A stretch of DNA of 64,000 nt from Gymnodinialimonas ceratoperidinii (GTDB taxonomy: Bacteria; Pseudomonadota; Alphaproteobacteria; Rhodobacterales; Rhodobacteraceae). The translations under genes and the position numbers were made by a program. The stretch lies in assembly GCF_019297855.1 (NCBI RefSeq), contig NZ_CP079194.1, positions 793,501 to 857,500 of the forward strand, given 5' to 3'. Shown piece after piece: positions 30,017-57,440 of this stretch; the first letter of the stretch is position 1, and every line of letters starts with the position of its first letter. The notes below the pieces were generated by a model that worked only from the letters and a program-made list of their open reading frames with translations, was not told where the DNA came from and made no database searches.

Positions 30017-30020
30017 GTCG

Positions 30021-30944: not shown

Positions 30945-30956
30945 GTCTCAGCCCCC

Positions 30957-31913: not shown

Positions 31914-31999
31914 GGGGTCCCTTCAGGGCGGGCATTTGCCCGGATTCTTGCTGTTTTTGGTTCCGGTCGGAACGGACGTGAGTGCAGATGAAATGGAAA

Positions 32000-32025
32000 C
32001 CCCCGGCCAGATGGCTGGCCGGGGG
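32000..32025 (-). terminator. Hairpin between binding-protein and permease genes
   Basis: A perfect 11-bp stem (32000-32010 with 32015-32025) closes an ATGG loop 10 bp after the binding-protein stop on the minus strand, followed by GTTTCCATTTC. It likely reduces read-through into the permease genes or stabilises the binding-protein message. Confidence 0.72.
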
Positions 32026-32035
32026 GGAATTTGGC

Positions 32036-33604: not shown

Positions 33605-33616
33605 TGATGTCTCCAC

Positions 33617-33936
33617 TGTTGTGACTTCTGACCGGTTTGCCCGGCCTGTTTGTCAGGTCATTCTGCCCGCGATAGTCTGCGTTTCAAGCTCTAGATGCAA
33701 CCGGCTAGGCAAGTTTGTCAGGAGGGCGGGCGCTTGACAGAACCGGTTTTAGCGGTGGTTTGACAGGCTGCAGCGGTTCCAGAGCGGAGGCCCGACGCGT
33801 CCATCGTCAAGCAATAAAGGGGCTGGAGCGGATGTGAGAAGTATTCAGGTATGCAGGACTGTCGCGCGAGGGCGGTCAGTAAATCGGCTACGCGGCCCGC
33901 GACGCGCGGACCGGGAAATCGCGCTGTATCCCGCCC
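33617..33936. promoter_or_regulatory. 320-bp intergenic region with repeated decamers upstream of the ABC operon
   Basis: No convincing gene lies here. The decamer GTTTGTCAGG occurs at 33648-33657 and 33713-33722, and GTTTGACAGG at 33758-33767. ACCGGTTT appears twice, once within the palindrome AACCGGTT near 33741. Because the ABC operon starts at 33604 on the minus strand and hyuB ends at 33937, these repeats should control the ABC operon. No confident -10/-35 pair is seen. Confidence 0.35.
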
Positions 33937-35640: not shown

Positions 35641-35643
35641 GGC

Positions 35644-37722
35644 TCAATCCTTCGCGATCATGTCGATGCAGCCGTCGGGCTGGCGCAGGGCGTTGCGGCT
35701 GGCGGGCAGGATGATGGTGGTCTCGTCCTCGGTCACGGCGGCCGGACCGTGGGCGACCTGACCCTCTGCCATTGTGGTGCGGTCGACCACGGCGGCATCG
35801 AAGAACCGCGCTTCGGCGGGGTCGAAAAGCTGGCGCTCCCCTTGGGCCGTGGCCGTGGCGCCGGGTGCGGCCTCGTCGAGGCGCGCGACCTCTTCGGGCG
35901 GGGTGGTGGCGTTGACCGACCAGACGGTGATCTCGATATCCATGCCCGCAACGGTGCGTCCGAAGAGCTTGGCGTATTCCTCCTCGAACCGCGCCTGGAA
36001 GGTCGCGGCGTCGGGGTTCATGGCCTGGGCTTCGGTCAGGTCGATGGGGATTTCCCACCCCTGTCCGGTGTAGCGCATGTAGACCTTGAACTCCGACAGG
36101 ATCGGCGCCTCGGCGTCACAGGTGCGCACGAAGCCCGTGGCCTCGGCCTGCAGGTCCGTGAGCAGGGTGCGGATCGTGTCCGGCGCAAAGTCCGAGAGCT
36201 TCATGTAGACCGAGCGGTTGGCCTCGAAGCTGAAGGGGGCGCGCAGGAAACCGATGGCGCTGCCCACCCCTGCGCCGGGCGGCACGAGGCAGCGGTCGAT
36301 GCCCAGTTTTTCGCAGAGCCGCCCGGCGTGGAGCGGAGCCGCGCCGCCGAAGGCGATCATCGTGTAATCGCCCAAGTCCTCGCCGTTCTCCACCGCGTGG
36401 ACGCGGGCCGCGTTGGCCATGTTCTCGTCCACCACCTCGGCCACACCGAAGGCGGCCTCTACCGCGTCCATCTCGAGCGTTTGGCCCAACTCGCTTTCCA
36501 ACGCGGCGGCGGAGGCATCGGGGTCGAGCGCGATCGAGCCGCCCGCGAAATTGGCCGGGTCCAGCTTGCCGAGCATGAGGTCGGCATCGGTCACCGCAGG
36601 CCGCGCGCCGCCGCGCCCGTAGCAGGCGGGGCCGGGCTCGGAACCTGCGCTCTCGGGCCCCACGCGGATCTGCCGCATCGCGTCCACATGGGCCAGCGAG
36701 CCGCCGCCGGCCCCGATCTCCACCATGTCGATGACGGGGATCGAGATCGGCATCCCCGAGCCCTTCTTGAAGCGATAGGTCCGCGCCACTTCGAACACGC
36801 GGCTGGTCTTGGGGGTCTGGTTCTTGATCAGGCAAATCTTCGCGGTGGTCCCGCCCATGTCGAAGGAGAGCACCTTGTCCAGCCCGTAGCGCGCCGCGAT
36901 ATGGGCGGCGAAAACCGCACCGCCGGCGGGACCGCTTTCCACCAGCCGGACCGGGAACTCGGCTGCATTGGCGATCGAGATGATGCCGCCGCCCGAATGC
37001 ATCAGGAAGATGCGGCAGGTGACGCCCTCACCGGCCAGCCGCTCCTCCAGCCGTCCAAGGTAGGAAGCCATCAGCGGCTTGATATAGGCATTGGCGAGTA
37101 CCGTGTTGAAGCGCTCGTACTCGCGCATCTGGGGCGAGACCTCGCTGGAGAGCGAGACGGCAACGTCCGGCACCACCTCGGCAAGGATATCGCGGATCAT
37201 CTGCTCGTGGGCCGGATTCAGGTAGGCGTGGATCAGCCCCACGGCGACGCTCTCGAATCCCGCCGCCTTGATCCGCTCTGCAACCTTGCGGACCTCTTCC
37301 GGGTCCAGCTCGATCATCATCTCGCCCTTCGCGTTCACCCGCTCGGCCACGGTGAAGCGCATCTGTCGCGGCAGGAGCGGCTCGGGCAGGGTGAGGTTGA
37401 GGTCGTATTGCTCGAAGCGGCTCTCGGTCCGCATCTCGATCACGTCGCGGAAGCCCTCGGTGGTGATCAGCGCCGTCTTCGCGCCACGCCGCTCGATCAG
37501 CGCGTTTGTCGCAAGGGTCGTGCCGTGGATGATCTGGGTGATCTCCGCCGGCGTGATGCCCGCCTTCGCGCAGACCTGCTGCATCCCGTCGATGATCGCG
37601 TTCTCCGGCGCGGCATAGGTCGTGAGCACCTTGGTCGAGACCTGCCCGCCCGCGCCCTCCAGCACGACGTCCGTGAAGGTGCCGCCGATATCGACACCGA
37701 GGCGGTAGGAGGCAGAGGTCAT
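35644..37722 (-). CDS. hyuA: Hydantoinase A / N-methylhydantoinase subunit A
   Basis: A 692-residue HyuA-family ATPase subunit. The N-terminal YRLGVDIGGTFTDVVL is the ASKHA nucleotide-binding loop, followed by IHGTTLATNALIERRGAKTALITTEGFRDV and VLSFDMGGTTAKICLI, all diagnostic. The ATG has AAGGA upstream. HyuA and HyuB are separate genes here, unlike single-chain 5-oxoprolinase. A LysR gene lies directly upstream on the same strand, and the two promoter regions share the octamer TGAGTTTC, suggesting regulation by that protein. Confidence 0.92.
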   Translation of the reverse strand: MTSASYRLGVDIGGTFTDVVLEGAGGQVSTKVLTTYAAPENAIIDGMQQVCAKAGITPAEITQIIHGTTLATNALIERRGAKTALITTEGFRDVIEMRTESRFEQYDLNLTLPEPLLPRQMRFTVAERVNAKGEMMIELDPEEVRKVAERIKAAGFESVAVGLIHAYLNPAHEQMIRDILAEVVPDVAVSLSSEVSPQMREYERFNTVLANAYIKPLMASYLGRLEERLAGEGVTCRIFLMHSGGGIISIANAAEFPVRLVESGPAGGAVFAAHIAARYGLDKVLSFDMGGTTAKICLIKNQTPKTSRVFEVARTYRFKKGSGMPISIPVIDMVEIGAGGGSLAHVDAMRQIRVGPESAGSEPGPACYGRGGARPAVTDADLMLGKLDPANFAGGSIALDPDASAAALESELGQTLEMDAVEAAFGVAEVVDENMANAARVHAVENGEDLGDYTMIAFGGAAPLHAGRLCEKLGIDRCLVPPGAGVGSAIGFLRAPFSFEANRSVYMKLSDFAPDTIRTLLTDLQAEATGFVRTCDAEAPILSEFKVYMRYTGQGWEIPIDLTEAQAMNPDAATFQARFEEEYAKLFGRTVAGMDIEITVWSVNATTPPEEVARLDEAAPGATATAQGERQLFDPAEARFFDAAVVDRTTMAEGQVAHGPAAVTEDETTIILPASRNALRQPDGCIDMIAKD

Positions 37723-40383: not shown

Positions 40384-41622
40384 TCACGCGAACCGCGTGA
40401 TCGCATAGGGGGCGAGGTCGGCGTTGCTGCGCCGGTCCTCTATCAGGTCGGCCACGACCTCCCCCGACTTCGGCGCCATCATCAACCCGTAGTGGGAATG
40501 GCCGAAGCAGGTGAACAGGCCCGGTCGCTCCGGCACCTCGCCGATGGCGGGCAGGCTGTCGGGGAACGAGGGGCGCTGGCCCATCCACAGCTTGCCGTCT
40601 TGGGTGTTCAACCCCCGCAGCGCGTCTGAGGCGGCATCCGTGAGGATCGCCTCACGGCTCGGGTCCGGCGGGGCGTCGATGGCGGCGAACTCGGCCTGGC
40701 CCGCGATGCGGATGCCGCCGTTCATCCGGCTCAACACCACCTTGCGATCCACGTCCATGACTGAATGGTTCAGGGAAACACCGGGGTTGCGGAACTCCAC
40801 GTGGTAGCCGCGCTCGGCCTGAAGCGGCACCTTCATGCCCAACCCCTGAAGGAGGGTCTTTGACCAGACCCCCATGGCGATCACGACGCGCGCGGCCTCG
40901 TAGCTGTCGCCTTTGCAGCGGACGCTCCACCCCGTTTCGCCCTGCTGTAGGGCCTCCACCTCGTCGCGGATGATCTCCACCCCGAGACCGCGGGCCTTGG
41001 CGGCGAGCGCGTCGCAGATCTCTCCCGGTGACAGCGCGCGGGCCTGACCCTTGATGAGGATGGCGGCCTTGAACGCCTCGCTCAGACCGGGCTCCAACTC
41101 GCGGAGCGCGCCGCCCTCGACCACCTCCATCTCCGCGCCCTTCTCGCCGCGGAGGGCATAGCCGAGCGCGGTGATATCCGCCTTCTCCGCCTTGCGGAAC
41201 GCGTGGATGTAGAAGGAATCCTGCACGAGGTGCTCTTGCCCCGTGCCTTGCAGGTGGCGACGGTAGAGATCGACGGAAGGGCCGCAAAGATGCTCCATCG
41301 CGTCGACGATCTCGCGCACCCGCGCGACGCGCCCCTGCGCAAGGAACCGCAGGCCCCAAGGCACCATCGCGGGCCAATGGCGGGCATGGATGCGCAGCGT
41401 CTTGTCGCGGTCGGTCAGCAGGCCGGGGATCTGCTTCAACAGCCCCGGCATGCTCTGGGGGATGATCGACCAGGGAGAGATCACCCCGGCATTGCCGAAG
41501 GAGGTCTCGCGCCCCGGTTCCTGCCGGTCGATCAGGCGCACCGCGTGGCCGCGCTCGGCGAGGGAGAGGGCACAGCAGAGCCCGACAGCGCCGGCGCCGA
41601 GAATGGTAATCGGATGGTCCAT
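40384..41622 (-). CDS. dadA: FAD-dependent D-amino acid dehydrogenase (DadA-like)
   Basis: A 412-residue DAO-family flavoprotein. GAGAVGLCCALSLAERGH at the N-terminus binds FAD, and ETSFGNAGVISPWSIIPQSMPG is characteristic of DadA-type dehydrogenases. The C-terminal TCFGHSHYGLMMAPKSGEVVADLI closes the FAD site. It would oxidise a D-amino acid or similar imino compound and feed electrons to the membrane. It starts 4 bp after the TRAP permease stop, so the imported compound is probably its substrate. Exact amino acid is unknown. Confidence 0.85.
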   Translation of the reverse strand: MDHPITILGAGAVGLCCALSLAERGHAVRLIDRQEPGRETSFGNAGVISPWSIIPQSMPGLLKQIPGLLTDRDKTLRIHARHWPAMVPWGLRFLAQGRVARVREIVDAMEHLCGPSVDLYRRHLQGTGQEHLVQDSFYIHAFRKAEKADITALGYALRGEKGAEMEVVEGGALRELEPGLSEAFKAAILIKGQARALSPGEICDALAAKARGLGVEIIRDEVEALQQGETGWSVRCKGDSYEAARVVIAMGVWSKTLLQGLGMKVPLQAERGYHVEFRNPGVSLNHSVMDVDRKVVLSRMNGGIRIAGQAEFAAIDAPPDPSREAILTDAASDALRGLNTQDGKLWMGQRPSFPDSLPAIGEVPERPGLFTCFGHSHYGLMMAPKSGEVVADLIEDRRSNADLAPYAITRFA

Positions 41623-41626
41623 GGGC

Positions 41627-43843
41627 TCAGGCGACCGCGTTCGCGCGCCGTTTGAGGCCCTGGCTCAGGATCACCGGCGTGCACAGGATGAGCGCGAAGA
41701 GGTCGGCCTGCAGCGACGGCGCGATGAAGACCAATCCGGCGAACGCCAGCAGCCAGCGGAAGGCCATGTTCACTGGGGCGAAGAAGTAGCCCACCACGGC
41801 CGTCGACAACGCCACGACCCCGGCGATGCAGGACGCCGCGGTATAGGTGAACTCCCACAGGTCGAACCCGGTGGACGAGACGAACAGCAAGACCGGCGCA
41901 TAGACGAAGGCCATGGGCGCCACGACCTTGCCGAGCCCGAGGGTGAAGGCCGATATGCCGGTTCGGAACGGGTTTGAATTGGCAATCGCCGCGGCCGCAT
42001 AGGCCGAGGTGCAGACCGGCGGCGTGATCTCTGCCACCACGCCGTAATAGAGCACGAACATGTGGCTCGCGATTGGCGGGATGCCCAGTTGCGCCAGTGC
42101 CGGCTGTGCGACCGAGACCAGCATGATGTAGAGCGCCGTCGTCGGGATGCCCGCGCCCATCAGGATGCAGGCGATGGCGATGAAGACGAGGCTGATGAAC
42201 AGCGTCAGGTCCTCGACGGTGATGAATTGCAGGCCGGTCATGTCGAAGAGGACATGCAGGTCCGTGCCGAGGTTCGACGCGCCCTGCGTGACCATGAAGC
42301 CGATGCGGAAGCCGATGCCGGTGGTGTTGATCACACCCACGACGATGCCCACCGCCGCCGAGGCCGCGCCGACGGCGAGGGCGTATTTCACCCCGGTCTC
42401 GAAGGTTGTGGCCATTTGCGGCAGGCGGATGCGCGTCTGGGGGTTGAGCGTCCCGAGAACGCCACAGGCGATCAGGATCGCCGACATGCCCAGATCGAAG
42501 CCACCGCCGAGGTATTTCCAGACAACGAAGGCGATGAAGGCCGCGGCGTAGATCAGCGTGATCGGCTCCCGCACCCGGGACATGCCCGCGATCAGGGCGA
42601 CCGAGATGCCGCAGAAGGCCGACATGTAGGGCGTGTAGCCCGAGAAGAGCACGACCAGCAGCGCGATCAGCGGCACGATATTGGCCCAACCCTCGCGCCA
42701 GACGGCGGCGAACTGCGGCAGCGCCTCGCGGGTCAGGCCCTTGAGGTCCAGCTTCTTGGCCATCAGGTGCACGACCGTGAAGACGCCCACGTAATGCAGC
42801 AGCGCGGGGAAGATCGCGGCGATGACGATGGTGGTGTAGGGCACCTCGAGGAACTCGGCCATGATGAAGGCCGCGGCCCCCATGATCGGCGGGGTGATCT
42901 GCCCCCCGGCGGAGGAGGCCGCCTCGACTCCGCCAGCGAAATGGCCGGGATAGCCAAGGCGTTTCATGTTGGGAATCGTCAGTGCCCCGGTGGAGACGGT
43001 GTTGGCCACCGAGCTGCCCGAGATCGTGCCGAAGAAGGCCGACGAGACGACCGAGACTTTCGCCGGCCCGCCGGTGTAGCGGCCGGCAAGGATCGTCGCG
43101 TTGTCGATGAAAAGCTGCCCAAGCCCGGTGCGCTGCGCGATGACGCCGAACAGCACGAAGTGGAAGACGATGGTCGAGACCACCCAAAGGGTGACGCCGA
43201 AGATGCCCTCCTGCGGGAAATACATCGACGATACGAAGGTGCGCACGCGCACGCCGGGGTGCTGCAGGACGCCGGGGAACCACGGCCCGAACAGGGCATA
43301 GGCAATGAAGACGCAGATGATCGCGGGCAGGATCCACCCAAGGGTGCGGCGCGCGATGTCGAGCACGAGGATGATCAGGCAGGTGCCGAAGAACATGTCG
43401 TAGTTGTTCGGGTTGCCCATCCGGAAGGTCTGCTCGTCGATGCCGAGCATCGGCACACCGCGCCATGCAAGACCGAGATAGAGCGCCGAGGCGACGCCAA
43501 GGATCATCAGGATGAAATCGAAGATCGGCACATTGCCGATCCGGAAAGCGGAATTGCGGACCTCGAAGGCGCGCTTGGTCTTGAAGACGGGGAACAGCGC
43601 GTAGGTCAGGATGAACAGGCCCGACAGGTGCCAGCCCATATGCCAGTGGTCGGCGGGCAGGGCGAAGCCTGCGGTCAGGTAGTGGTAGACGGCAAAGGTC
43701 AGGGCCACCGCGCGCAGGCCAAGGGCGAGGCGGGGGCCGACGGGCCGGGTGGCCGCGCCCTCGTCGTATTTCCGTTCGATCTCGGCCAGTTCCTCGGCGC
43801 TCAATTCGTCGGTGCTGGTCTGGTCTGCGGTCTGTGCTGACAT
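41627..43843 (-). CDS. TRAP transporter fused permease (TAXI type, 4TM-12TM)
   Basis: A 738-residue inner-membrane protein in which the small (DctQ-like) and large (DctM-like) TRAP permease subunits are one chain, as usual with TAXI binding proteins. About 16-18 hydrophobic segments are visible, with signature stretches such as SSAFFGTISGSSVANTVSTG and GGQITPPIMGAAAFIMAEFL. ATG 43843 (MSAQTADQ) follows GAGAGGGG; the open frame begins earlier at 43906 without support. A hairpin and 88 bp separate it from the binding-protein gene upstream. Confidence 0.92.
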   Translation of the reverse strand: MSAQTADQTSTDELSAEELAEIERKYDEGAATRPVGPRLALGLRAVALTFAVYHYLTAGFALPADHWHMGWHLSGLFILTYALFPVFKTKRAFEVRNSAFRIGNVPIFDFILMILGVASALYLGLAWRGVPMLGIDEQTFRMGNPNNYDMFFGTCLIILVLDIARRTLGWILPAIICVFIAYALFGPWFPGVLQHPGVRVRTFVSSMYFPQEGIFGVTLWVVSTIVFHFVLFGVIAQRTGLGQLFIDNATILAGRYTGGPAKVSVVSSAFFGTISGSSVANTVSTGALTIPNMKRLGYPGHFAGGVEAASSAGGQITPPIMGAAAFIMAEFLEVPYTTIVIAAIFPALLHYVGVFTVVHLMAKKLDLKGLTREALPQFAAVWREGWANIVPLIALLVVLFSGYTPYMSAFCGISVALIAGMSRVREPITLIYAAAFIAFVVWKYLGGGFDLGMSAILIACGVLGTLNPQTRIRLPQMATTFETGVKYALAVGAASAAVGIVVGVINTTGIGFRIGFMVTQGASNLGTDLHVLFDMTGLQFITVEDLTLFISLVFIAIACILMGAGIPTTALYIMLVSVAQPALAQLGIPPIASHMFVLYYGVVAEITPPVCTSAYAAAAIANSNPFRTGISAFTLGLGKVVAPMAFVYAPVLLFVSSTGFDLWEFTYTAASCIAGVVALSTAVVGYFFAPVNMAFRWLLAFAGLVFIAPSLQADLFALILCTPVILSQGLKRRANAVA

Positions 43844-43880
43844 GGGGTGCCCCTCTCCCGGGTCGTCTTGCTGAGGTGAC

Positions 43881-43905
43881 TGGGGCGCCCTCTCAGGACG
43901 CCCCA
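43881..43905 (-). terminator. Hairpin after the TAXI binding-protein gene
   Basis: An 11-bp stem with one C-A mismatch and a CTC loop lies between the binding-protein stop (43932) and the TRAP permease start. No T-run follows on the minus strand. A likely stabiliser or partial terminator that favours the binding protein. Confidence 0.6.
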
Positions 43906-43931
43906 ACCTGTTGCGAAAAATGGCTGTGGAG

Positions 43932-48382: not shown

Positions 48383-49519
48383 CTAGACCTGGGTCTCTGA
48401 CGCGATGCGCCCGGCCATCATTGGGTGGGCCACGCCAGTGGTGCCGGCAAATGTCACCGGCAATTCCCGCAAACGCCGCATCGCGAGGTAGGCGAAGCAC
48501 TGGGCCTCTGTCGCGTCGCCTTCCCAACCGCGGGCCTCGGCCTTCTCCACGGCAACGCCCGCATATTCGGCAATCATCCGCAGCAACGTCGGGTTGTGCC
48601 GCCCGCCGCCGCAGACGATCAGGCGATCCGGACGAACCGGCAGGTGGTCGAGCCCGCGCCCGATGGCCGAGGCTGTGAAGGCGGTGAGGGTCGCCGCCCC
48701 ATCGGCGTCGGAAAGCTCTGCCACCCAGTCATGGCCGAAGTCGAACCGGTCGAGGGATTTCGGATAGGCCTGATCGAGGTAGGGATGCTCGAGAGCGCGC
48801 GCGAGCCGCGTCGCGTCCACTTGCCCCGTGGCCGCAAGCTGCCCGTCGCGGTCCATCTCGCCCAAGCCACGGTGGCGCATGAAATCGTTGATCGGCGCGT
48901 TGGCCGGGCCGGTATCGAAGGCCGCCAGCGTCCCATCGGCCGCGCGGCCCGTCACGTTCGCGACGCCGCCAAGGTTCAGGATCGCGGTCCCCTCGGCATC
49001 ATCGAGCGTCGAGAGCAACGCATCGTGGTAATTCGCGGACAGCGGCGCGCCTTGCCCGCCAGCGGCCATGTCGCCACTGCGGAAATCAAAGACCACTTCC
49101 GAACCAAGGCGGCGCGCCATCTCGACGCCTTCTCCAAGCTGCCGGGTTTGCCCGAGCCGCTCCGGCGTCGGCGCGCGGTGCAGCACCGTCTGTCCATGGA
49201 AGCCCACCGCAGCGATATCCGAGAGCGCCAGCCCGGCCTCCTCCACCAACCGCGCCACGGCGTCCGACTGCGCGGCGGTGATCCGCGCCTCGGCCTCGGC
49301 AAAGATCGCGGGCTCCGGCCCGTCGAACCCCCATGCCATGGCCTCCTGCAGGCAGCGCGCCAGCAGCGCGTTGGTCTCCGCGTCGTAGGGGTAGAGCGCG
49401 AAAAGGCCGAAGGCGCCGATCGTCTCGCCGTCGGTCTTCAGAAGCGCCACGTCGATGTTTCCGTCCAGCACGGTGCCGGTCATCAGCCCGACGCACCAGC
49501 GCATCTCGTTCTCAGCCAT
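48383..49519 (-). CDS. anmK: Anhydro-N-acetylmuramic acid kinase
   Basis: A 378-residue ASKHA-family kinase that opens and phosphorylates 1,6-anhydroMurNAc to MurNAc-6-phosphate. VGLMTGTVLDGNIDVALLKT at the N-terminus is the phosphate-binding loop, and GFHGQTVLHRAP and NLGGVANVTG with FDTGPANAPINDF are AnmK hallmarks. MurNAc-6-phosphate is the substrate of MurQ encoded at the other end of the same leftward operon. Its ATG overlaps the serine hydrolase gene end by 8 bp. Function is strongly supported by both motifs and context. Confidence 0.93.
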   Translation of the reverse strand: MAENEMRWCVGLMTGTVLDGNIDVALLKTDGETIGAFGLFALYPYDAETNALLARCLQEAMAWGFDGPEPAIFAEAEARITAAQSDAVARLVEEAGLALSDIAAVGFHGQTVLHRAPTPERLGQTRQLGEGVEMARRLGSEVVFDFRSGDMAAGGQGAPLSANYHDALLSTLDDAEGTAILNLGGVANVTGRAADGTLAAFDTGPANAPINDFMRHRGLGEMDRDGQLAATGQVDATRLARALEHPYLDQAYPKSLDRFDFGHDWVAELSDADGAATLTAFTASAIGRGLDHLPVRPDRLIVCGGGRHNPTLLRMIAEYAGVAVEKAEARGWEGDATEAQCFAYLAMRRLRELPVTFAGTTGVAHPMMAGRIASETQV

Positions 49520-50480
49520 AGAGGGCCTCTCCCACTTCCTGTCGCAATGCCGCGATCCCGGTCTCCACGTGCCGCGAGGGGTGCACGCGGTTGGTCAGCA
49601 GGGTCCAGACCTGCCCCGCTCGGTGATCGATCCAGAGGCCGGTGCCGGTAAAACCGGTGTGGCCGATGGTGTCCTCGTCGCAGGCCTGCCCGCCGGACCA
49701 GCCGGGATAGCGGATTTCCCACCCATGGGTGCGCTGGTCGCGCAGCCGCTCGCAGGTGAGATCCGGGCCGCGTGCCAGCAGGCGTTCACCGAAGTCGAGA
49801 AGCGCGTCGGCGGTCCCGAAGAGACCGGCATGGCCCGAGCCTTGCAGCGCGTAGCAATTCTCGTCGTGGACCTCGCCGCGCATCACGCGGCCGCGCCATG
49901 TGCAGGCCTCGGTCGCGGCGCAGGCAGAGGGCTCGGGGGCGAAGGTGAAGCCCGCGCCGGGATCCATCTCGCGGATCATCCGGCCCTCGATCCGCTCCAG
50001 CGCGATGCCGAGGCAGATGAAGTTGATGTCGGAGTAGACCGGAGTCTCCACCCGAGCCCATTCTCGTTGCAACACGAAGGCGCGGAGCGTCGCGGGATCA
50101 GCGCCGTAGGTGTAGATCGGTACCACTGCCGGGAAATGCGTGAGGTGGCCCAGGCAGTCGCGGAAGGTCGTCGCGCGCTCCCAACAGCCCGCGTCATACT
50201 GGCGGAAATCGGGGATCACCGTGGTCAGCGGCGCGTCGAGGTCGAGCCGCCCGGCCTGCGCATGGGCAAGGATGCGCTCGGTAGTGAAGACCACCTTGGT
50301 GAGGGAGGCGAGGTCGTAGATCGTCTCGCGGGTCACGGGTGCAGGCTCGGGCACCAGCGCGGCCTGTCCCGTCCACGCAACCTGCCGGCCCGCGCCGTTC
50401 ACCACGCCGAGGATCGCGCCGGGAATGCGTTTCTCGCGCACTGCATCTTCCACGCGCGCCCAGGCCGCGTCGAAACTCAT
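49512..50480 (-). CDS. Beta-lactamase-fold serine hydrolase in the peptidoglycan-recycling operon
   Basis: A 322-residue class C beta-lactamase/penicillin-binding-fold protein. The nucleophile motif is Ser59-LT-Lys62 (DLASLTK), the second motif is VYSDINF, and a C-terminal HTGFTGTGLW replaces the KTG box. No signal peptide, so cytoplasmic. The start ATG 50480 overlaps the ABC ATPase stop by 4 bp; the open frame to 50549 is unsupported. Inside an operon for muropeptide sugar recovery it could trim peptides or esters from imported wall fragments; this is inference, since the family includes esterases, amidases and peptidases. Confidence 0.85.
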   Translation of the reverse strand: MSFDAAWARVEDAVREKRIPGAILGVVNGAGRQVAWTGQAALVPEPAPVTRETIYDLASLTKVVFTTERILAHAQAGRLDLDAPLTTVIPDFRQYDAGCWERATTFRDCLGHLTHFPAVVPIYTYGADPATLRAFVLQREWARVETPVYSDINFICLGIALERIEGRMIREMDPGAGFTFAPEPSACAATEACTWRGRVMRGEVHDENCYALQGSGHAGLFGTADALLDFGERLLARGPDLTCERLRDQRTHGWEIRYPGWSGGQACDEDTIGHTGFTGTGLWIDHRAGQVWTLLTNRVHPSRHVETGIAALRQEVGEALYG

Positions 50481-52180
50481 GGCCGCGGCTCCACGGCAGA
50501 GCGGTGGCCGGGCCCATGCTCGTGCCACGCCAGCGGCGCGGGCTCCCACCCGAGCGGGCGCAGGGTGGAAGGCACCTCGTCGGTCTCCACCGCGAAATCC
50601 ACCTCGCGGCGGTCCAGCGCGGGCACGGCTGAGATCAGCTTGCGCGTGTAGGGATGCTGCGGGGCGGAGAGGACCTCTGTCGAGGGGCCGATCTCGACGA
50701 TCTGGCCTGCGTAGATCACTGCGATGCGGTGGGCGATGCGCTCCACCACGCCCATGTCGTGGGAGACGAAGAGGTAGGCGAGGTCGAACTCGCGCTGCAG
50801 GTCCACCAGCAGGTCCAGCACCTTGGCCTGCACCGAGACGTCCAGCGCCGAGACCGCCTCGTCCAGCACGAGGATCTTCGGTTCGGGCATCAGGGCGCGG
50901 GCGATGCAGATGCGCTGACGCTGGCCGCCCGAGAACTCATGCGGGTAGCGCTCCAGCGAATCCGTGGGCAGGTCCACCTTGTCGAGCAGCATGCGCATCC
51001 GGTCCTCCGCTGCGCGGTCCACCTTGCGGCCCGCCGCGATCACCGGCTCGGCCAGCAGGGTGCGCACGTTCATCCGCCCGTTGAGCGAGGCATTGGGGTT
51101 CTGGAACACCATTTGCACCGCGCGCGGGCCACCGGCCGAGATCTCTCCCCGCGTCGGCTCATTCAACCCGAGGATCGCGCGCGCCATGGTGGACTTGCCC
51201 GAGCCGCTTTCGCCAACGATGCCGAGCGTCTCGCCCGGTTGCAGCTCGAAGGAAACGTTGGAGACGGCGTGCACCTCGCCCTTCGCGGGCCGCAGGAAGC
51301 CCCCGCCCACGGGAAAACGTACGGCAAGGTCGCGAACCGCCAGTGCCGGGGTGCCGGGCGCTTGGCGTGCCTCGGGCGCAGCGGCGCCGTGGCGGAAGTG
51401 CGGCACGGCCGAGAGCAGGTGCTGCGTGTAGGGATGGGTCGGCCTGTCGATGATGTCGTTCGTCGTGCCAGCCTCCACGACCTTGCCGTGCTGCATCACC
51501 ACGGTCTTGTCGGCGATCCCCGCGACGACGCCGATGTCGTGGGTGATGAAGATCAGCCCGGTCCGGGTCTCGCGCTGCAACTCGGCCAGCAGGGCGAGGA
51601 TCTGCGCCTGGATCGTCACGTCGAGCGCCGTGGTCGGCTCATCTGCGATCAGCAGGCGCGGCTCGCTCGCCAGCGCCATGGCGATCATGATCCGCTGCAG
51701 CATCCCGCCCGACATCTGGTGTGGCGCTTGATCCAGCCGGCGCGCGGCATCGGGGATGCGCACCCGGTCGAGCGCGCGGATCGCTGCATCGCGCACCGCG
51801 CGCCCCGAGAGGCCATGGCGCTTTGCAAAGATCTCGCCGATCTGGGTGCCGACCTTCAGCACCGGGTTGAGCGAGGTCATCGGTTCCTGAAAGATCATCC
51901 CGATCTCGCGCCCGCGCAGGCCCTGCATCTCGGCCTCGGTCGCGGTGACGAGGTCGCGGGTGCCGTCGAGCAGGATCTGCCCGCCAAGGATGCGCCCGCC
52001 GCCGTAATCCACCAGCCGGTTGATCGACATCGCCGTGACCGACTTGCCCGAGCCGCTTTCGCCGACGATCGCCAGCGTCTCGCCCGGCGCCACGTCGAAG
52101 CTGACACCGTGGACAACCTCTTTCTCCTGCCCCGCGCGCCCGAAGCCCACGCGGAGGTCCCTGACCGATAGAAGCGTCAT
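50477..52180 (-). CDS. Peptide-type ABC transporter ATPase, fused DppD-DppF form (peptidoglycan-recycling operon)
   Basis: A 567-residue double ATPase. First domain: GESGSGKSV near residue 40, [16 protein letters not shown] and [15 protein letters not shown]; second domain: GESGSGKST near residue 327, [16 protein letters not shown] and [15 protein letters not shown]. It powers the two permeases encoded just upstream (4-bp overlap). Similar in architecture to the 28361-30016 gene, but a separate system. Context with murQ and anmK suggests uptake of muropeptides or anhydroMurNAc compounds. Confidence 0.88.
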
Positions 52181-53019
52181 GCCCGGCCTCCCCCTTGCGA
52201 TTTCGGATCGGTGATGTCGCGCAGCGCGTCACCCAACAGGTTGAAGCCCAGAACGGCGAGCATGATCGTCGCCGCCGGGAAGATCAGCAGCCAGGGCGCC
52301 ATCTCCATCAGGTTGCGGCTGTCCGAGAGCATCAGCCCGAGCGACGGGTCCGGCGGCTGCGTGCCAAGGCCGAGGAAGCTCAGCGCCGCCTCGGTCAGCA
52401 GCGCCCAGGCCAGCGCCAGCGTGTATTGCACGGTCAGCGGTGCTACGAGGTTGCCGAGCAGGTGGCGGGACATGATGTAGCTGCGCGAACTGCCGAAGGT
52501 GCGCGCGGCGTCGACGAAGCTGCGGGTCTTGAGCGACAGCGCCGGCCCTCGCGCCACGCGGGTGAAGATCGGCGTGTAGACCACGGCGATGGCAAGGATC
52601 GAGGTCCACATGCTCGCCTGCAGGATGGCCACGATCAGCAGCGCCAGAAGGATCGCGGGGAAGGCCAGCAGCACGTCCATGGTGCGCATCGTGGCCCCGT
52701 CCCAGAGCCCGCCGAACCACGCGGCGGTCAGCCCGAGCACGGTGCCGAGGGTCGCCGCGATAGTGACCGAGGAAAGCGCCACCACGAAGGAGCGTCCGAT
52801 CCCCTCCATCAGGCGGCTCAACATGTCGCGCCCGAAGAGGTCGGTGCCGAGCAGGTAGGTGGAGCTCGGCCCTTGCAAGCGGGACAGCCGGTCCTGAGCC
52901 AGCGGATCATGGGGCGTCAGGCCAAGCAGGCCGAGGAGGGCGGCAAGCCCGAGAAGACCGATCAGGACGAGACTGATCCGCCCGGCGGGATGGCGGGCCA
53001 GCGCGCGCAGCAGGCTCAT
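52177..53019 (-). CDS. Peptide-type ABC permease (DppC-like)
   Basis: A 280-residue inner-membrane permease with an N-terminal helix (ISLVLIGLLGLAALLGLLGL), YLLGTDLFGRDMLSRLMEGI and the coupling loop DAARTFGSSRSYIMSRHLLGN, all DppC-type. It overlaps both neighbours by 4 bp, so the four transporter genes of this system are tightly coupled. Confidence 0.88.
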   Translation of the reverse strand: MSLLRALARHPAGRISLVLIGLLGLAALLGLLGLTPHDPLAQDRLSRLQGPSSTYLLGTDLFGRDMLSRLMEGIGRSFVVALSSVTIAATLGTVLGLTAAWFGGLWDGATMRTMDVLLAFPAILLALLIVAILQASMWTSILAIAVVYTPIFTRVARGPALSLKTRSFVDAARTFGSSRSYIMSRHLLGNLVAPLTVQYTLALAWALLTEAALSFLGLGTQPPDPSLGLMLSDSRNLMEMAPWLLIFPAATIMLAVLGFNLLGDALRDITDPKSQGGGRA

Positions 53020-53978
53020 GATTTGCCTCCGTAGCGGATACGCGGATCGAGCGCCGCGTAGGCGAGGTCGACCAGCAGGTTCACCAGCATGAAGTTGAAG
53101 GCGATGAAGAGGATCACCCCCTGCACCAGCGCGTAGTCGCGCTCGAGGATCGCATCGAGCACCACGCGGCCAAGGCCCGGCAGGGCGAAGATCTGCTCCA
53201 CGATGACGGCGCCGCCCAGAAGGTAGCCGAACTCCACCCCGCTCAGCGTCAGCACCGGAATCAGCGCGTTCGGCAGGGCGTGGCGCCAGATGACGTAGCC
53301 CTGGCTGAACCCCTGCGAGCGGGCGGTGCGCACGTAATCCTCGCTCAGGATGTCGAGCATCGCGGCACGGGTGATGCGGGTGACGGCGGCGGCGAAGGCG
53401 GTGCCAAGCGCGAAGGCCGGCAGGATCATCTGCGCGAGATTGCCGAGCGGGTTCTCGGAGAAGGTGACCTGGCGGCCCATGGTGGGCAGCACGCCGAAGC
53501 CCACGGAAAGGATGTAGATGGAAAGAAGCGCCACGACGAAGTTGGGCATGGATTGGCCCATCATGGCGAAAATGCGCACGATCAGGTCCGAGGGCCGGTT
53601 GGCGCGCGTCGCGGCGTAGACCCCGGCCGGCAGGCCGATCGCCAGCGCAATGACCATCGACATCAGCGCCAGTTGCAGGGTCAGGGGAAAGCGTTCGAGG
53701 ATCAGGTCCAGCACCGGCTGCCCATAGGTAATGGAAATGCCCAGATCACCCTGCAACAGCCCGCCAAGCCAGCGGAAATATTGCACGAACCAGTTCTGAT
53801 CGAGCCCGAAATAGACGGTCAGTGCCTCGCGCTGCGCGGGCGTCAACATGCCGGCCTCGGTGCCCAACATCGCCGTGATGGCGTCGCCGGGCACCAGCCT
53901 TATCGCAACGAAGACGAAGATCGAGACACCCAACATGACCAGCGGAAAAACCGCGAGGCGTCTGAGAAGATAATTCAT
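53016..53978 (-). CDS. Peptide-type ABC permease (DppB-like)
   Basis: A 320-residue inner-membrane permease: N-terminal LLRRLAVFPLVMLGVSIFVF, FGLDQNWFVQYFRWLGGLLQ, and the cytoplasmic TARSQGFSQGYVIWRHALPN loop of DppB proteins. It follows the binding-protein gene by only 25 bp with no intervening hairpin, unlike the other three uptake systems in this window. Confidence 0.9.
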   Translation of the reverse strand: MNYLLRRLAVFPLVMLGVSIFVFVAIRLVPGDAITAMLGTEAGMLTPAQREALTVYFGLDQNWFVQYFRWLGGLLQGDLGISITYGQPVLDLILERFPLTLQLALMSMVIALAIGLPAGVYAATRANRPSDLIVRIFAMMGQSMPNFVVALLSIYILSVGFGVLPTMGRQVTFSENPLGNLAQMILPAFALGTAFAAAVTRITRAAMLDILSEDYVRTARSQGFSQGYVIWRHALPNALIPVLTLSGVEFGYLLGGAVIVEQIFALPGLGRVVLDAILERDYALVQGVILFIAFNFMLVNLLVDLAYAALDPRIRYGGKS

Positions 53979-54003
53979 GTCGGGTGCCTGTCCGTTCGTC
54001 TCG

Positions 54004-55521
54004 TTATTCTGCCAGCGTCACGTTGGTGAGGCCGAACAGCGTGCCGGTGGGCGAGGAGGTGAAGCCGGAAACGGCCTCGGTCTGCGCCGTGTAGGTGTTG
54101 CCGGTGAACAGCCAGATCCAGGGCGACATCTCGGCCAGATGGCTCTCGAAGTTTGCGAAGATCTCGGCGCGGGCGGCCTCGTCGGTCTCGGCGCGGCCCT
54201 CGTTCATCAGGCTGTCCAGCGTGTCGTCGATGTAGTTGGCGACGCCCTGCAGGTTGCCGTCCCGGGTCCAGTAGCGGTTGTACATGGTGTAGGGATCGAC
54301 GCGACCGCCGTTCAGCGCCACGGCCATGTCGAAGTCGGCGGCCAGCCAGCGGTCGATGTAGACGCTGAGTTCCAGCATCTCGATCTCCAGCGTGATGCCC
54401 ACTTCCGACAGTTGCGATTGCAGCACCTGCGCCACGGCCGAGGCGGTGGGTGGCTCGCCGTTGGCCGCGATCACGGTGGCGGTGAAGCCGTCGGGATGAC
54501 CGGCCTCGGCCAGCAACTCGCGGGCGCGGTCCTGATCCTGCTCGTAGCAGAAGAGGCCGCTCGGGTCCGAGCGATAGGCCGGAGAGGTCAGCGGGCCGGT
54601 GACTTCGCCCTCGCCAAGCAGGGCCGCATCCAGCACGTCCTGCCGGTCGATGGCGCACCCGATGGCCTGGCGCAGCGCCAGCTCGCCCATCGGCTCACGC
54701 GAGGCGTTGAGCTGCAGCACGTAGTAGCTGAGCGTCGGGGCGGCATTGAGTTGCAGGCCGGGAGAATCCGGCACCAGCGTGGCGACCAACGGGTCGTTGA
54801 TTAGCGCGAAATCGGCCTGACCGGCGCGCAGGGCGGCCAGCAGGGCGGTCTCGTCGGGCAACACGCTGATGTTGATCCCATCATAGGCCACGTCGCCGCC
54901 GGCCCAATCCTCGAACGCGCCGAGCGTGGCGGAGGCGTTGGGTGTGCGCGCGTCGAGCGTGAAGGGACCGGAGCCGATCACCTCGGTATCCAGCGTCCCG
55001 GCCTCGATGGCCGAGGCGGGAACCACGGCGGCGTTGACCGAGGCCAGACCGTTCAGCAGCGGCGCATTGGGGGCGTCGAGTTCGAAGATCACCGTGTGGT
55101 CATCCGGGGTCTCGATGTTGACGATGGAGGTATAGTTGGCCCGCGCGATGGCGCCGGTTTCCTCGTTCAGGATGCGGTCGAAAGAGGCGCGCACATCGGC
55201 AGAGGTGACGGGCGTTCCGTCGTGGAACATCGCGTCGGCATCAAGCTGGAACGTCAGTTGCAGGCCATCGTCCGAGAAGCTCCAGCTTTCGGCCAGGGCA
55301 GGCTGCAATTCCAGCCCTTCGTCCAAGCGCACCAGCGGCTCGTAAAGCAGTTCCAGCAGGCGGATCGTGGCGAAGCCCGGCTGCGTGTGGGGGTCCAGAC
55401 CCGTGGCGTCCTGCGACCAGGCCAGATCGAGCGTTTGCGCCGATAGCGGCGCGGCGAGGGCGGTGCTGACGAGCGCCAGCGCCCGCGCCGTGGTCTTGGC
55501 GGTGTGTGTGATCGATTTCAT
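54004..55521 (-). CDS. Peptide-type ABC transporter substrate-binding protein (candidate muropeptide binder)
   Basis: A 505-residue family 5 solute-binding protein with a Sec signal peptide (basic MKSITHTAKTTAR, hydrophobic ALALVSTALAAPLSA, cleavage before QTLDL). LDLAWSQDATGLDPHTQ and EPLVRLDEGLELQPALAESW are family 5 features. Good GGGAGAT upstream of the ATG. It is encoded directly after murQ, so its ligand may be a peptidoglycan fragment. Family 5 proteins such as MppA and YejA are known to bind murein peptides or muropeptides, which supports but does not prove this. Confidence 0.87.
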   Translation of the reverse strand: MKSITHTAKTTARALALVSTALAAPLSAQTLDLAWSQDATGLDPHTQPGFATIRLLELLYEPLVRLDEGLELQPALAESWSFSDDGLQLTFQLDADAMFHDGTPVTSADVRASFDRILNEETGAIARANYTSIVNIETPDDHTVIFELDAPNAPLLNGLASVNAAVVPASAIEAGTLDTEVIGSGPFTLDARTPNASATLGAFEDWAGGDVAYDGINISVLPDETALLAALRAGQADFALINDPLVATLVPDSPGLQLNAAPTLSYYVLQLNASREPMGELALRQAIGCAIDRQDVLDAALLGEGEVTGPLTSPAYRSDPSGLFCYEQDQDRARELLAEAGHPDGFTATVIAANGEPPTASAVAQVLQSQLSEVGITLEIEMLELSVYIDRWLAADFDMAVALNGGRVDPYTMYNRYWTRDGNLQGVANYIDDTLDSLMNEGRAETDEAARAEIFANFESHLAEMSPWIWLFTGNTYTAQTEAVSGFTSSPTGTLFGLTNVTLAE

Positions 55522-55556
55522 TTCCGGATATCTCCCTTGGGTTGATGTACTGCGGT

Positions 55557-56489
55557 TCAGGCGGCGGAGTTTTTTCCCGCTCGTTCAATGGCTTTGCGCA
55601 GGAAACCGCCTTCGGCTTCCAGGATCGCGCGCGCCTTGTCGGCGTCGAGGTCGGTGATCTGCATCAGGATGGCGAGCTTCACGCTGCCGTCGCTTTTGCG
55701 CAGCAGGTCCTGCGCCTCTTTGGCGTCGCACCCGGTCGCGTCGCGCAACATCTCTTCGGCACGGTCCGCGAGTTTCTGGTTCGAGATCGTCACGTCGACC
55801 ATCCGGTTGCCCCAGGTCTTGCCGAGGCGGATCATGCTGGCGGTGCTCAGCATGTTGAGCACCATTTTCTGCGCCGTGCCTGACTTCAGTCGGGTCGACC
55901 CGGTGATGACCTCGGGCCCCACGACGGGGGAGATCGCGGCGTCAGCGATCTCGGTGATCGGAGAGCCCGGATTGCAGGACAGCGACGCGGTGAACGCGCC
56001 GACCTCCTTTGCATGGCGCAGTGCGCCGATGACATAGGGCGTGCGACCGCTGACCGCGATGCCGACGACCACATCGCGCGCCTCGAGATCAATGGCCTTG
56101 AGGTCTTCGGCGCCTTGATCGGCATCGTCCTCGGCCGCCTCGACCGGGTAGCGCAGGGCGCGTTCGCCGCCGGCGATCAAGCCGACGACCATCGTATCAG
56201 GCACCGAAAACGTCGGCGGGCATTCCGAGGCGTCGAGCACGCCGAGCCGCCCGCTGGTGCCTGCGCCGATGTAGATCAGCCGCCCGCCTTGGGAGATCGC
56301 CTCCACGATCTGGTCCACCGTGCGGGCAATTGCGGGGATCTCGGCGGCGACCGCTTTGGCCACGCCCTGATCCTCGACATTCATGCAGGTGACGATCTCG
56401 GACGCGGTCATCAGATCGATCTTGGCCGAACGCGGGTTGCGCGCCTCGGACACAAGTGATGCGAGGTCTGATCGAGTGGCGGTAGACAC
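55557..56489 (-). CDS. murQ: N-acetylmuramic acid 6-phosphate etherase
   Basis: A 310-residue SIS-fold lyase that removes D-lactate from MurNAc-6-phosphate to give GlcNAc-6-phosphate. The SIS core [21 protein letters not shown] contains the catalytic Glu89, preceded by [12 protein letters not shown], typical of MurQ. I start it at GTG 56489 because AAGGGGAG lies 8 nt upstream; the open frame to ATG 56543 would read through the AT-rich promoter. First gene of the leftward operon with the ABC importer, serine hydrolase and anmK. Divergent from the RpiR-type regulator. Confidence 0.93.
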
Positions 56490-56591
56490 GGCAGCGACTC
56501 CCCTTCTTGAGAGAAGATTGAATTTTTTATTCCCCCATGTCAATTTTTTTGTGATAAGTTATTCCAAACTGAGCAAAGCGGGTCGTGATCC
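56490..56591. promoter_or_regulatory. Divergent murQ / RpiR-type regulator control region with repeated motifs
   Basis: An AT-rich 102-bp gap. TTATTCC occurs at 56527-56533 and 56559-56565, 32 bp apart (about three helical turns). The first is part of the dyad GAATTTTTTATTC (56520-56532), the second of GATAAGTTATTCC (56553-56565, arms ATAA/TTAT). A minus-strand TTGACA lies at 56538-56543. The paired sites are good candidates for the SIS-domain regulator encoded next door. Confidence 0.5.
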
Positions 56592-57440
56592 TTGTCCATT
56601 CTCACCTTGATGCAGGCGCAGCTTGAAACCTTCTCGGCGGGCGAGCGACAGATCGCGAACACGATCCTCGATGATCCCGACATGATGGCCCGCCTGTCGT
56701 CGATCGAACTGGCGCGGAAGTCGGGGCGCAGTCAGTCTTCCGTGGTGAAATTCTGCCAGAAACTGGGCTTCTCGGGCTACCAGGACCTGCGATTGGAGAT
56801 CACCCGCGCCGCCGCCGCGGCCCGGAGCGCGCCCCTCGACGCGGTGCACAGCACCATCGACACCGGGGATGACGCGCTGATCACGGCGCAAAAGCTGTTG
56901 TCGAGCAAGATCAAGTCCCTGCAGGAAACCCTCGGCATCAACGCGCCCGGGCAGATGGACGCCGCCCGCGATATGCTTAACGGTGCGGCGCGGGTGCAGC
57001 TTTCCGGGGTCGGTGCGTCATCGCTCGTGGCCCGTGATTTCGCCTACAAGCTGCAGAAACTGGGCATTCCTGTGCTTTTCGACGGGGATAGTCACATCCA
57101 GATCGCCCATGCCGCGACCCTGACGGAAAGCGATGTGCTCGTGTCGCTCTCGCAATCGGGCACCAGTCTCGAGACGCTGCGCGTGGCCGAGACCGCGCGG
57201 CAACGCGGCGCGACGATCCTGACAGTGACAGGCCTGCATCCCAACCGGCTGGCGGAACTGGCCGATATCGCTCTGCGCACCGTGACCGATGAAGAACGGG
57301 TCCGCTCCTCGGCGATCACCTCGCGCGATGCGCAGCTGATCCTTCTCGACATGGTGTTCCTGCGGCTGGTGCAGATCCGCGATGGCGCGGTCGAGTTGAT
57401 CAGCGGCGCGGCCGAAGCAGTAGCCCCGCTGAAGCTGTAG
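56592..57440 (+). CDS. RpiR-family regulator (MurR-like)
   Basis: A 282-residue regulator: N-terminal HTH_6 domain (about 1-75; FSAGERQIANTILDDPDMM, and LARKSGRSQSSVVKFCQKLGF) and a C-terminal SIS domain (about 125-260; LSGVGASSLVARDFAYKLQ; VSLSQSGTSLETLRVAE). MurR, the repressor of murQ in Escherichia coli, has this architecture and senses MurNAc-6-phosphate; divergent placement from murQ supports the same role. The start is a TTG at 56592 or a GTG two codons earlier; neither has a clear ribosome-binding site. Confidence 0.87.
   Translation: MSILTLMQAQLETFSAGERQIANTILDDPDMMARLSSIELARKSGRSQSSVVKFCQKLGFSGYQDLRLEITRAAAAARSAPLDAVHSTIDTGDDALITAQKLLSSKIKSLQETLGINAPGQMDAARDMLNGAARVQLSGVGASSLVARDFAYKLQKLGIPVLFDGDSHIQIAHAATLTESDVLVSLSQSGTSLETLRVAETARQRGATILTVTGLHPNRLAELADIALRTVTDEERVRSSAITSRDAQLILLDMVFLRLVQIRDGAVELISGAAEAVAPLKL

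Follow-up and report, generated by a model that had tools for sequence, protein, structure and literature searches.

A predicted inducible operon for the uptake and catabolism of anhydro-muropeptides in Gymnodinialimonas ceratoperidinii

The window analysed here, a 64,000-base stretch of Gymnodinialimonas ceratoperidinii DNA (positions 793501–857500 of a one-contig genome of 3,621,968 bases), contains an operon in which the N-acetylmuramic acid (MurNAc)-6-phosphate etherase MurQ and the anhydroMurNAc kinase AnmK are encoded together with a peptide-type ATP-binding cassette (ABC) importer and a serine hydrolase of family PF00144. We judge it moderately probable that this operon is an inducible catabolic module that imports anhydroMurNAc-peptides, cleaves their MurNAc-L-alanine bond in the cytoplasm and then degrades the sugar through AnmK and MurQ. 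The importer's substrate, the bond that is cut, the inducer, and the work of the module beside the YejABEF/AmpD/AnmK/AmgK/MurU route are matters that we infer from the observations below. The nearest named relative, judged by the binding protein (94%), is M385, a Rhodobacteraceae bacterium.

The operon runs on the minus strand from 56489 to 48383 in the order murQ, family 5 binding protein, DppB, DppC, fused ATPase, PF00144 hydrolase, anmK (Table 1), with gaps of 35 base pairs (bp) between murQ and the binding protein gene and 25 bp between the latter and dppB, overlaps of 4 bp at DppB/DppC, DppC/ATPase and ATPase/hydrolase, and an overlap of 8 bp at hydrolase/anmK. An RpiR-type regulator gene diverges from murQ at a distance of 102 bp. 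The first-pass annotation had described seven co-directional genes divergent from such a regulator, and every gene it named is in its place; two starts were corrected. The hydrolase most likely begins at the ATG at 50480, and murQ at the GTG at 56489 and not at the TTG at 56543, since the latter start would put a conserved operator (56519–56533) inside the gene.

Table 1. Positions in the window of the operon genes, the predicted operator and the divergent regulator.
Feature	Position	Strand	Basis
anmK, operon (second) anhydroMurNAc kinase, 378 residues	48383..49519	-	NF007141; DTGP Asp kept
PF00144 serine hydrolase, 322 residues, proposed cytoplasmic MurNAc-L-alanine amidase	49512..50480	-	Pfam, motifs, YfeW likeness, model
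Fused double ATPase, Dpp/Gsi/Opp-type importer, 567 residues	50477..52180	-	two ABC_tran and two oligo_HPY stretches
DppC-type permease, 280 residues	52177..53019	-	BPD_transp_1, OppC_N; Opp2C/NikC models below cut-off
DppB-type permease, 320 residues	53016..53978	-	Opp2B 332.4 of 350 bits
Family 5 periplasmic binding protein with signal peptide, 505 residues	54004..55521	-	SBP_bac_5 278.7 bits
murQ, MurNAc-6-phosphate etherase, 310 residues from GTG	55557..56489	-	TIGR00274; Glu83, Glu114 kept
Predicted operator TGAATTTTTTATTCC (GGAAT-N5-ATTCC, 1 mismatch)	56519..56533	.	conserved in related gaps
RpiR/MurR-like regulator, divergent	56592..57440	+	HTH_6 and SIS domains

The identities first proposed for the two sugar enzymes are borne out by curated cut-offs and by retention of catalytic residues. 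AnmK scores 461.9 bits with NCBIfam NF007141 (cut-off 352), keeps the Asp of the DTGP motif when aligned with E. coli AnmK, and is 49.4% identical to a second AnmK encoded elsewhere in the genome. MurQ passes two models (475.1 bits for a cut-off of 255, and TIGR00274 at 401 bits for a cut-off of 302), is 50.3% identical to E. coli MurQ and keeps Glu83 and Glu114, which we take to be the catalytic positions in E. coli numbering. The substrate of AnmK is 1,6-anhydroMurNAc, and anhydro fragments are made by lytic transglycosylases, so the sugar that reaches AnmK here is most likely an anhydro fragment.

The grouping of these genes is conserved well beyond this genome. A profile built from 16 binding proteins retrieved 211 relatives from GTDB species genomes, and of the best 80, which were kept, 72 keep the complete set of seven with order and strand unchanged; of the other eight loci, five run into a contig end (L019, L032, L038, L046 and L069) and three are from Devosia. 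Three genes are in two pieces in L016 (one of the 72), as is the ATPase gene in L053. Similarity was the criterion by which these 80 loci had been selected, and we therefore added two samples that span whole orders. Among 292 Rhodobacterales genomes, seven have a binding protein match at a threshold of 1e-60, four at 62–100% identity and three at 33–35%, and the full operon is present in all four with the close homologue; of the three low-identity loci L112 was examined widely and L093 and L094 over about 4.4 kilobases (kb). The second sample, 297 Rhizobiales genomes (the order of Rhizobium multihospitium, L035 in G300), gave 26 matches in 24 genomes, and all 26 loci, L035 included, were covered. 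Ten of these binding proteins are 59–67% identical to that of the window, and in all ten loci DppB, DppC, ATPase, hydrolase and anmK stand in line, with murQ near in eight (in L133 it is 42% identical and about 6 kb off). Close copies of the operon occur in two bacterial orders, and the conserved co-occurrence of the genes for which a search had been proposed is found: across both samples, hydrolase and anmK accompany 14 of 14 close binding proteins (59–100% identity), and murQ is near 12 of the 14. Regular occurrence of such transporters without murQ/anmK, which the first-pass annotation had named as refuting its reading, is therefore not what the close homologues show.

Five further loci have a different Dpp-type transporter, with a binding protein only 30–36% identical to that of the window, near wall genes. 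One is L112, with murQ, hydrolase and anmK; the others are four of the 16 distant Rhizobiales homologues, L142 and L144 (both with hydrolase and anmK), L151 and L152. In L151 (6220–17387) the transporter is near hydrolase, murA2, nagK and murQ, and in L152 (6339–16852) near anmK, murQ, nagK and murA2, in each case in a different gene order; L151 and L152 look like independent assemblies of the same theme. The hydrolases of the four re-assembled loci that have one are 57–61% identical to that of the window. In our view nothing argues more strongly for a functional connection between Dpp-type importers and wall-sugar enzymes than this re-assembly in five loci.

The transporter, where it has a public label at all, is called a peptide/nickel transport protein. 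Its binding protein and both permeases match Nik/Gsi/Opp/Dpp models, all below cut-off; the ATPase exceeds the cut-offs of some ATPase models, NF008453 among them (481.1 bits for a cut-off of 408), and its best model is GsiA (608 bits, below the cut-off of 1077). The first-pass annotation had tied this importer to YejABEF, a tie that has to be given up: the YejB model gives the operon DppB 112.9 bits against a cut-off of 445, and a true YejABEF lies elsewhere in the genome. By these scores the operon transporter is Dpp/Gsi/Nik-like and not YejABEF. Nor is the binding protein a DppA orthologue (129.1 of 1005 bits with the DppA model). The Asp and Arg with which DppA presumably holds the free ends of the peptide have no counterpart in the operon binding protein (we take DppA Asp408 and OppA Asp419 to pair with its free amino end); at the place of the Asp it has Gly or Arg, depending on gap placement, Gly406 being invariant in 16 aligned sequences, and the five distant binding proteins linked to wall genes have Gly in that column. 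Absence of the amino-end Asp would suit a peptide with a lactyl group blocking its amino end, and the binding protein residues are in this respect consistent with a muropeptide ligand, although they do not prove one. The structure model of the binding protein was too poor (predicted local distance difference test score (pLDDT) 56.4, 16 similar sequences) and was not used.

The hydrolase belongs to PF00144 (92.7 bits) and has the features of that family (Ser-x-x-Lys, Tyr and H/K-T-G motifs, beta-lactamase fold): Ser59-x-x-Lys62, Tyr149-Ser-Asp, HD(E/D)N..GHAGLF and HTGFTG vary little or not at all across 22 aligned sequences. E. coli YfeW is a relative at 26% identity over 316 residues and has YDLASxTK, YSD, HDE..GHAGLF and GHTGxTGT in common with it; public labels for the hydrolase, where there are any, read CubicO, esterase or serine hydrolase. 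In the structure model (pLDDT 90.7) the fold is in place from residue 3 onward and the alignment with solved members starts at residue 1, and because the fold starts this early the modelled protein has no room for a signal peptide. The hydrophobicity of the first residues (1.54 for the window hydrolase and −0.23 to 1.99 for the 22 hydrolase sequences) overlaps that of signal peptides (1.47–2.61 for the binding proteins). Lack of a signal peptide fits hydrolysis after import. No YfeW or AmiE structure was among the fold matches listed for the hydrolase by VIA-align, a result that excludes nothing. AmiE is the PF00144 protein of the B. subtilis murQ cluster (available part of PMC10653849) and is described in the available part of PMC5061867 as a MurNAc-L-alanine amidase acting outside the cell. 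Cleavage of the amide looks likelier for the window hydrolase than the peptide trimming or ester cleavage that had first been suggested.

The proposed pathway would then run as follows: the binding protein and the DppBC-ATPase complex would import 1,6-anhydroMurNAc-peptides, and perhaps MurNAc-peptides too, from the periplasm; the hydrolase would cut the MurNAc-L-alanine amide in the cytoplasm to give anhydroMurNAc and a peptide; AnmK would open and phosphorylate the anhydroMurNAc to MurNAc-6-phosphate; and MurQ would split this into GlcNAc-6-phosphate (GlcNAc, N-acetylglucosamine) and D-lactate. An amidase step inside the cell after import would account for both the peptide-type importer and AnmK. 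The earlier idea of a self-contained route from import to ether cleavage stands provided that the hydrolase is an amidase. Scavenging of foreign wall and recycling of the cell's own wall would both be compatible with this pathway.

A sugar phosphate, MurNAc-6-phosphate or one related to it, would regulate the operon by releasing the RpiR-type repressor from a GGAAT-N5-ATTCC operator. HTH_6 and SIS domains are present in the regulator; it scores below the MurR equivalog cut-off (153.5 of 408 bits), and its best model gives 206.2 bits for a cut-off of 355. The palindrome is present with no or one mismatch in 64 of 65 gaps between regulator and operon (47 exact; L012 is the one gap without it) versus 28 of 1300 shuffles, one locus of the 65 with a divergent regulator having been left out of the count for a gap of at least 600 bases. 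In the window alone the pattern is not beyond chance (3 matches, 1.44 expected). The palindrome was found and counted in one and the same set, made of relatives, so these numbers support a conserved predicted operator site and do not speak to its factor or inducer.

The rest of the genome suggests that the operon is an addition to wall recycling. No AmpG match was found at E 0.001 in this genome (G000), and in none of ten genomes was AmpG over its cut-off (two had weak matches of 24–30 bits; it was over cut-off in two of 14 controls), while YejB was over cut-off in the same ten genomes without exception. The genome's own YejABEF is at about 765–771 kb, its YejB at 767 kb passing the cut-off when its frame neighbours are counted. 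A second binding protein, 35% identical to the genome's YejA, is a YepA candidate; the available part of PMC9790009 gives 38.7% for the Agrobacterium YejA/YepA pair. An Amidase_2 (AmpD-type) protein is separately present, and an APH-family gene overlaps a nucleotidyltransferase gene, the two being AmgK/MurU candidates because the MurU-model match overlaps the APH-family gene; the MurU model itself is over cut-off in none of the ten genomes (own best 87.3 of 250 bits, with sub-cut-off matches in 14 of 14 controls). Judged by these components (YejABEF, Amidase_2, AnmK and the YepA and AmgK/MurU candidates), the housekeeping route looks complete or nearly so without the operon. The four Rhodobacterales carriers have two AnmK per genome and the six same-genus non-carriers one each; hydrolase homologues at 1e-60 occur in five of the 292 genomes (the four carriers and G285), and MurQ is over cut-off in the same four carriers, with 14 genomes matching at 1e-60. 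The first-pass annotation had connected the operon with the lack of AmpG, yet AmpG is over cut-off in none, and YejB in all, of the ten genomes while the operon binding protein is in four of 292 at 62% identity or more, which marks an accessory branch. We rejected the idea of an AmpG replacement, given that the YejABEF route is already present; the operon probably works beside the normal route and not instead of it, as an extra, inducible branch of the MurQ type.

The position of the operon is not fixed. In G. ceratoperidinii (G000:C1) it lies at about 850 kb beside ccr; in the other same-genus carrier (G167:C2) it is at about 3889 kb, and ccr is on the same contig at about 753 kb, from which we conclude that the operon has moved or been acquired more than once. 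The ccr regions of the six same-genus non-carriers have no operon genes and no xdhC-like gene, and no clean empty site could be defined there. Homologues of the binding protein (60–80%) are also found on 15 Rhizobium and Allorhizobium plasmid records.

Several observations weigh against import and catabolism of muropeptides as the role of the operon. It contains no NagZ, so GlcNAc-bearing fragments would need another enzyme. The DppA Asp is also lost in six of the seven unlinked paralogues examined (of 12), which have T, S or G at that column where the seventh has D, so its loss is no specific sign of muropeptides. None of the NCBIfam cut-offs is reached by the hydrolase (54.1 of 385 bits with the YfeW (PBP4B) model), and AmiE serves as a functional precedent through descriptions of its family and reaction. 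The three Devosia loci lack an adjacent murQ and keep the other operon genes, and no murQ is near the operon in two of the ten close Rhizobiales loci, L138 and L141. The notion of an importer dedicated to wall fragments is supported for the close homologues; 12 of the 16 distant Rhizobiales binding proteins (30–36%) have no wall gene in the stretch examined, some of these stretches being short (4,972 and 10,825 bases). Finally, many of the relatives are closely related to one another, and the order samples share some genomes with the set of 80, so the locus counts are not independent events.

Three other explanations were weighed. The operon might import free murein peptides, as MppA/Opp does, the hydrolase being a cytoplasmic peptidase (a carboxy- or aminopeptidase with the beta-lactamase fold) and AnmK and MurQ being co-regulated for sugars that enter through YejBEF. 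The ligand of MppA is the free murein tripeptide, and such a role would suit the peptide-type family of the transporter, the DD-peptidase 3pte and D-stereospecific hydrolase 9s7k among the fold matches of the hydrolase, the presence of YejABEF as a route for sugar-peptides, and the loci without adjacent murQ. We nevertheless consider it rather unlikely: comparison with MppA, which the first-pass annotation had proposed, gave 25% identity and no counterpart of the amino-end Asp of DppA, OppA and MppA, so that MppA orthology was rejected, and a peptide importer leaves the constant linkage to AnmK unexplained. Somewhat less likely still, in our estimation, is import of free anhydroMurNAc, MurNAc or a disaccharide, with the hydrolase removing an ester or other decoration and no peptide. 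The sugar alone suffices for AnmK and MurQ, the best relative of the binding protein with a solved structure is AgaA (6hlx), whose ligand is the sugar-amino-acid opine agropinic acid, and esterases are among the best fold matches of the hydrolase; but among murQ-linked enzymes of this fold, the closest one whose reaction is known is an amidase in the available descriptions, and other MurQ loci of Rhodobacterales, presumed to serve free sugar, do without Dpp-type permeases and hydrolase. Ten such loci (L113–L122) have no match to the hydrolase, anmK, DppB, DppC or binding protein and are probably a free-sugar route; a NagK-like kinase is found in nine of them and an ABC ATPase match in seven. 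That a lactam, opine or antibiotic-like compound unrelated to the wall is imported and hydrolysed, AnmK and MurQ having been recruited for a related sugar, agrees with the PF00144 fold and the AgaA similarity and is very improbable in view of two sugar enzymes that pass their cut-offs with catalytic residues kept, a class C beta-lactamase model that gives the hydrolase 23.1 of 415 bits (an identity we rejected), and the MurA paralogue and NagK/MurK-like kinase in 55 and 57, respectively, of the 80 related loci.

These last two genes, murA2 and the kinase gene, mostly lie between the regulator and murQ, adjoining the predicted operator (for example L035:5614–7742 and L124:12373–14489), and L124 and L125, which come from the order of the window's genome (Rhodobacterales), contain both; the window operon has neither. 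The MurA2 of L042 scores 529 bits (cut-off 392.7), and Lys22, Cys115, Asp305 and Arg397 of E. coli MurA, which we take to be active-site residues, are kept in seven of seven MurA2 proteins examined; the kinase of L020 is below the NagK cut-off (265 of 370 bits). MurA was counted in 15 genomes: there are two or three in each of the eight that have murA2 in the locus and one in each of six that do not; in L018 a second MurA is outside the stretch examined. In the related loci a sugar phosphate derived from wall fragments could release the MurR-like repressor, switch on the second MurA and so let turnover set the first committed step of peptidoglycan synthesis. Of the readings of murA2 in the operon, such a feed-forward from turnover to synthesis is the most daring. 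The wider proposal, in which the transporter would join AmpG and YejBEF-YepA as a third type of importer for muropeptides and be tied to a serine amidase of the cytoplasm, with a breakdown–synthesis switch through MurA2 in most related loci, is offered tentatively, as something we think doubtful at present.

Elsewhere in the window, 28361–37722 encodes a second peptide/nickel-type ABC importer (fused ATPase and binding protein identified, with two open reading frames between them) together with hydantoinase A and B (oxoprolinase-like) subunits and an adjoining LysR regulator gene, which may perhaps import and open a lactam or hydantoin, and at 40384–43906 a D-amino acid dehydrogenase-like gene adjoins a gene for a fused tripartite ATP-independent periplasmic (TRAP) transporter permease.

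If the muropeptide pathway is correct, wall fragments in alphaproteobacteria would follow either of two ABC routes, one belonging to the core and returning MurNAc to uridine diphosphate (UDP)-MurNAc, the other inducible and burning it via MurQ; a transporter and a hydrolase now named generically would gain a function; a serine enzyme would do the work of AmpD inside the cell; and wall turnover would be linked testably to MurA level through one operator. Among the papers listed by searches of the open PubMed Central literature, there was no description of the operon or of its murA-containing version. The nearest known arrangement is E. coli murR<>murQ-murP-yfeW, where MurQ, a transporter and a serine hydrolase of the PF00144 type likewise form one unit with an RpiR-type regulator that diverges from them; there, however, the transporter is the phosphotransferase system (PTS) protein MurP where the window has a Dpp-type ABC importer, a hydrophobic leader is present at the N-terminus of YfeW, and anmK lies apart from the murQ locus, where in the window it is inside the operon. 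E. coli MppA-Opp resembles the proposed importer as a family 5 binding protein with an Opp/Dpp-type ABC importer for murein pieces, and differs in the sequence of the binding protein (25% identity) and its amino-end Asp. AmpD is a zinc Amidase_2 enzyme that would share the proposed reaction, cytoplasmic cleavage of anhydroMurNAc-L-Ala, with the operon enzyme, which by its motifs is instead a serine hydrolase. Agrobacterium YejBEF-YepA is described, in the available part of PMC9790009, as a peptide-superfamily ABC importer for anhydromuropeptides in AmpG-less alphaproteobacteria, the role proposed here for the operon, but it is of a different transporter subfamily, with YepA encoded apart from YejBEF; that part of the paper proposes AnmK/MupP/AmgK/MurU as the sugar route and does not mention MurQ, and G. 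ceratoperidinii has its own YejABEF besides the operon. In the B. subtilis cluster murQ-murR-murP-amiE-nagZ-ybbC, MurQ is again accompanied by a PF00144 hydrolase, the MurNAc-L-alanine amidase AmiE (available parts of PMC5061867 and PMC10653849); unlike in the window, amidase and NagZ act outside the cell, MurP imports the sugar and the six genes do not include AnmK (available part of PMC5061867). AnmK matches were found in five of the 14 control genomes, B. subtilis not among them. By this comparison the operon would work like a MurQ/AnmK salvage unit in which a Dpp-type ABC transporter has taken the place of the PTS importer known from E. coli and B. subtilis and the amidase has been brought indoors.

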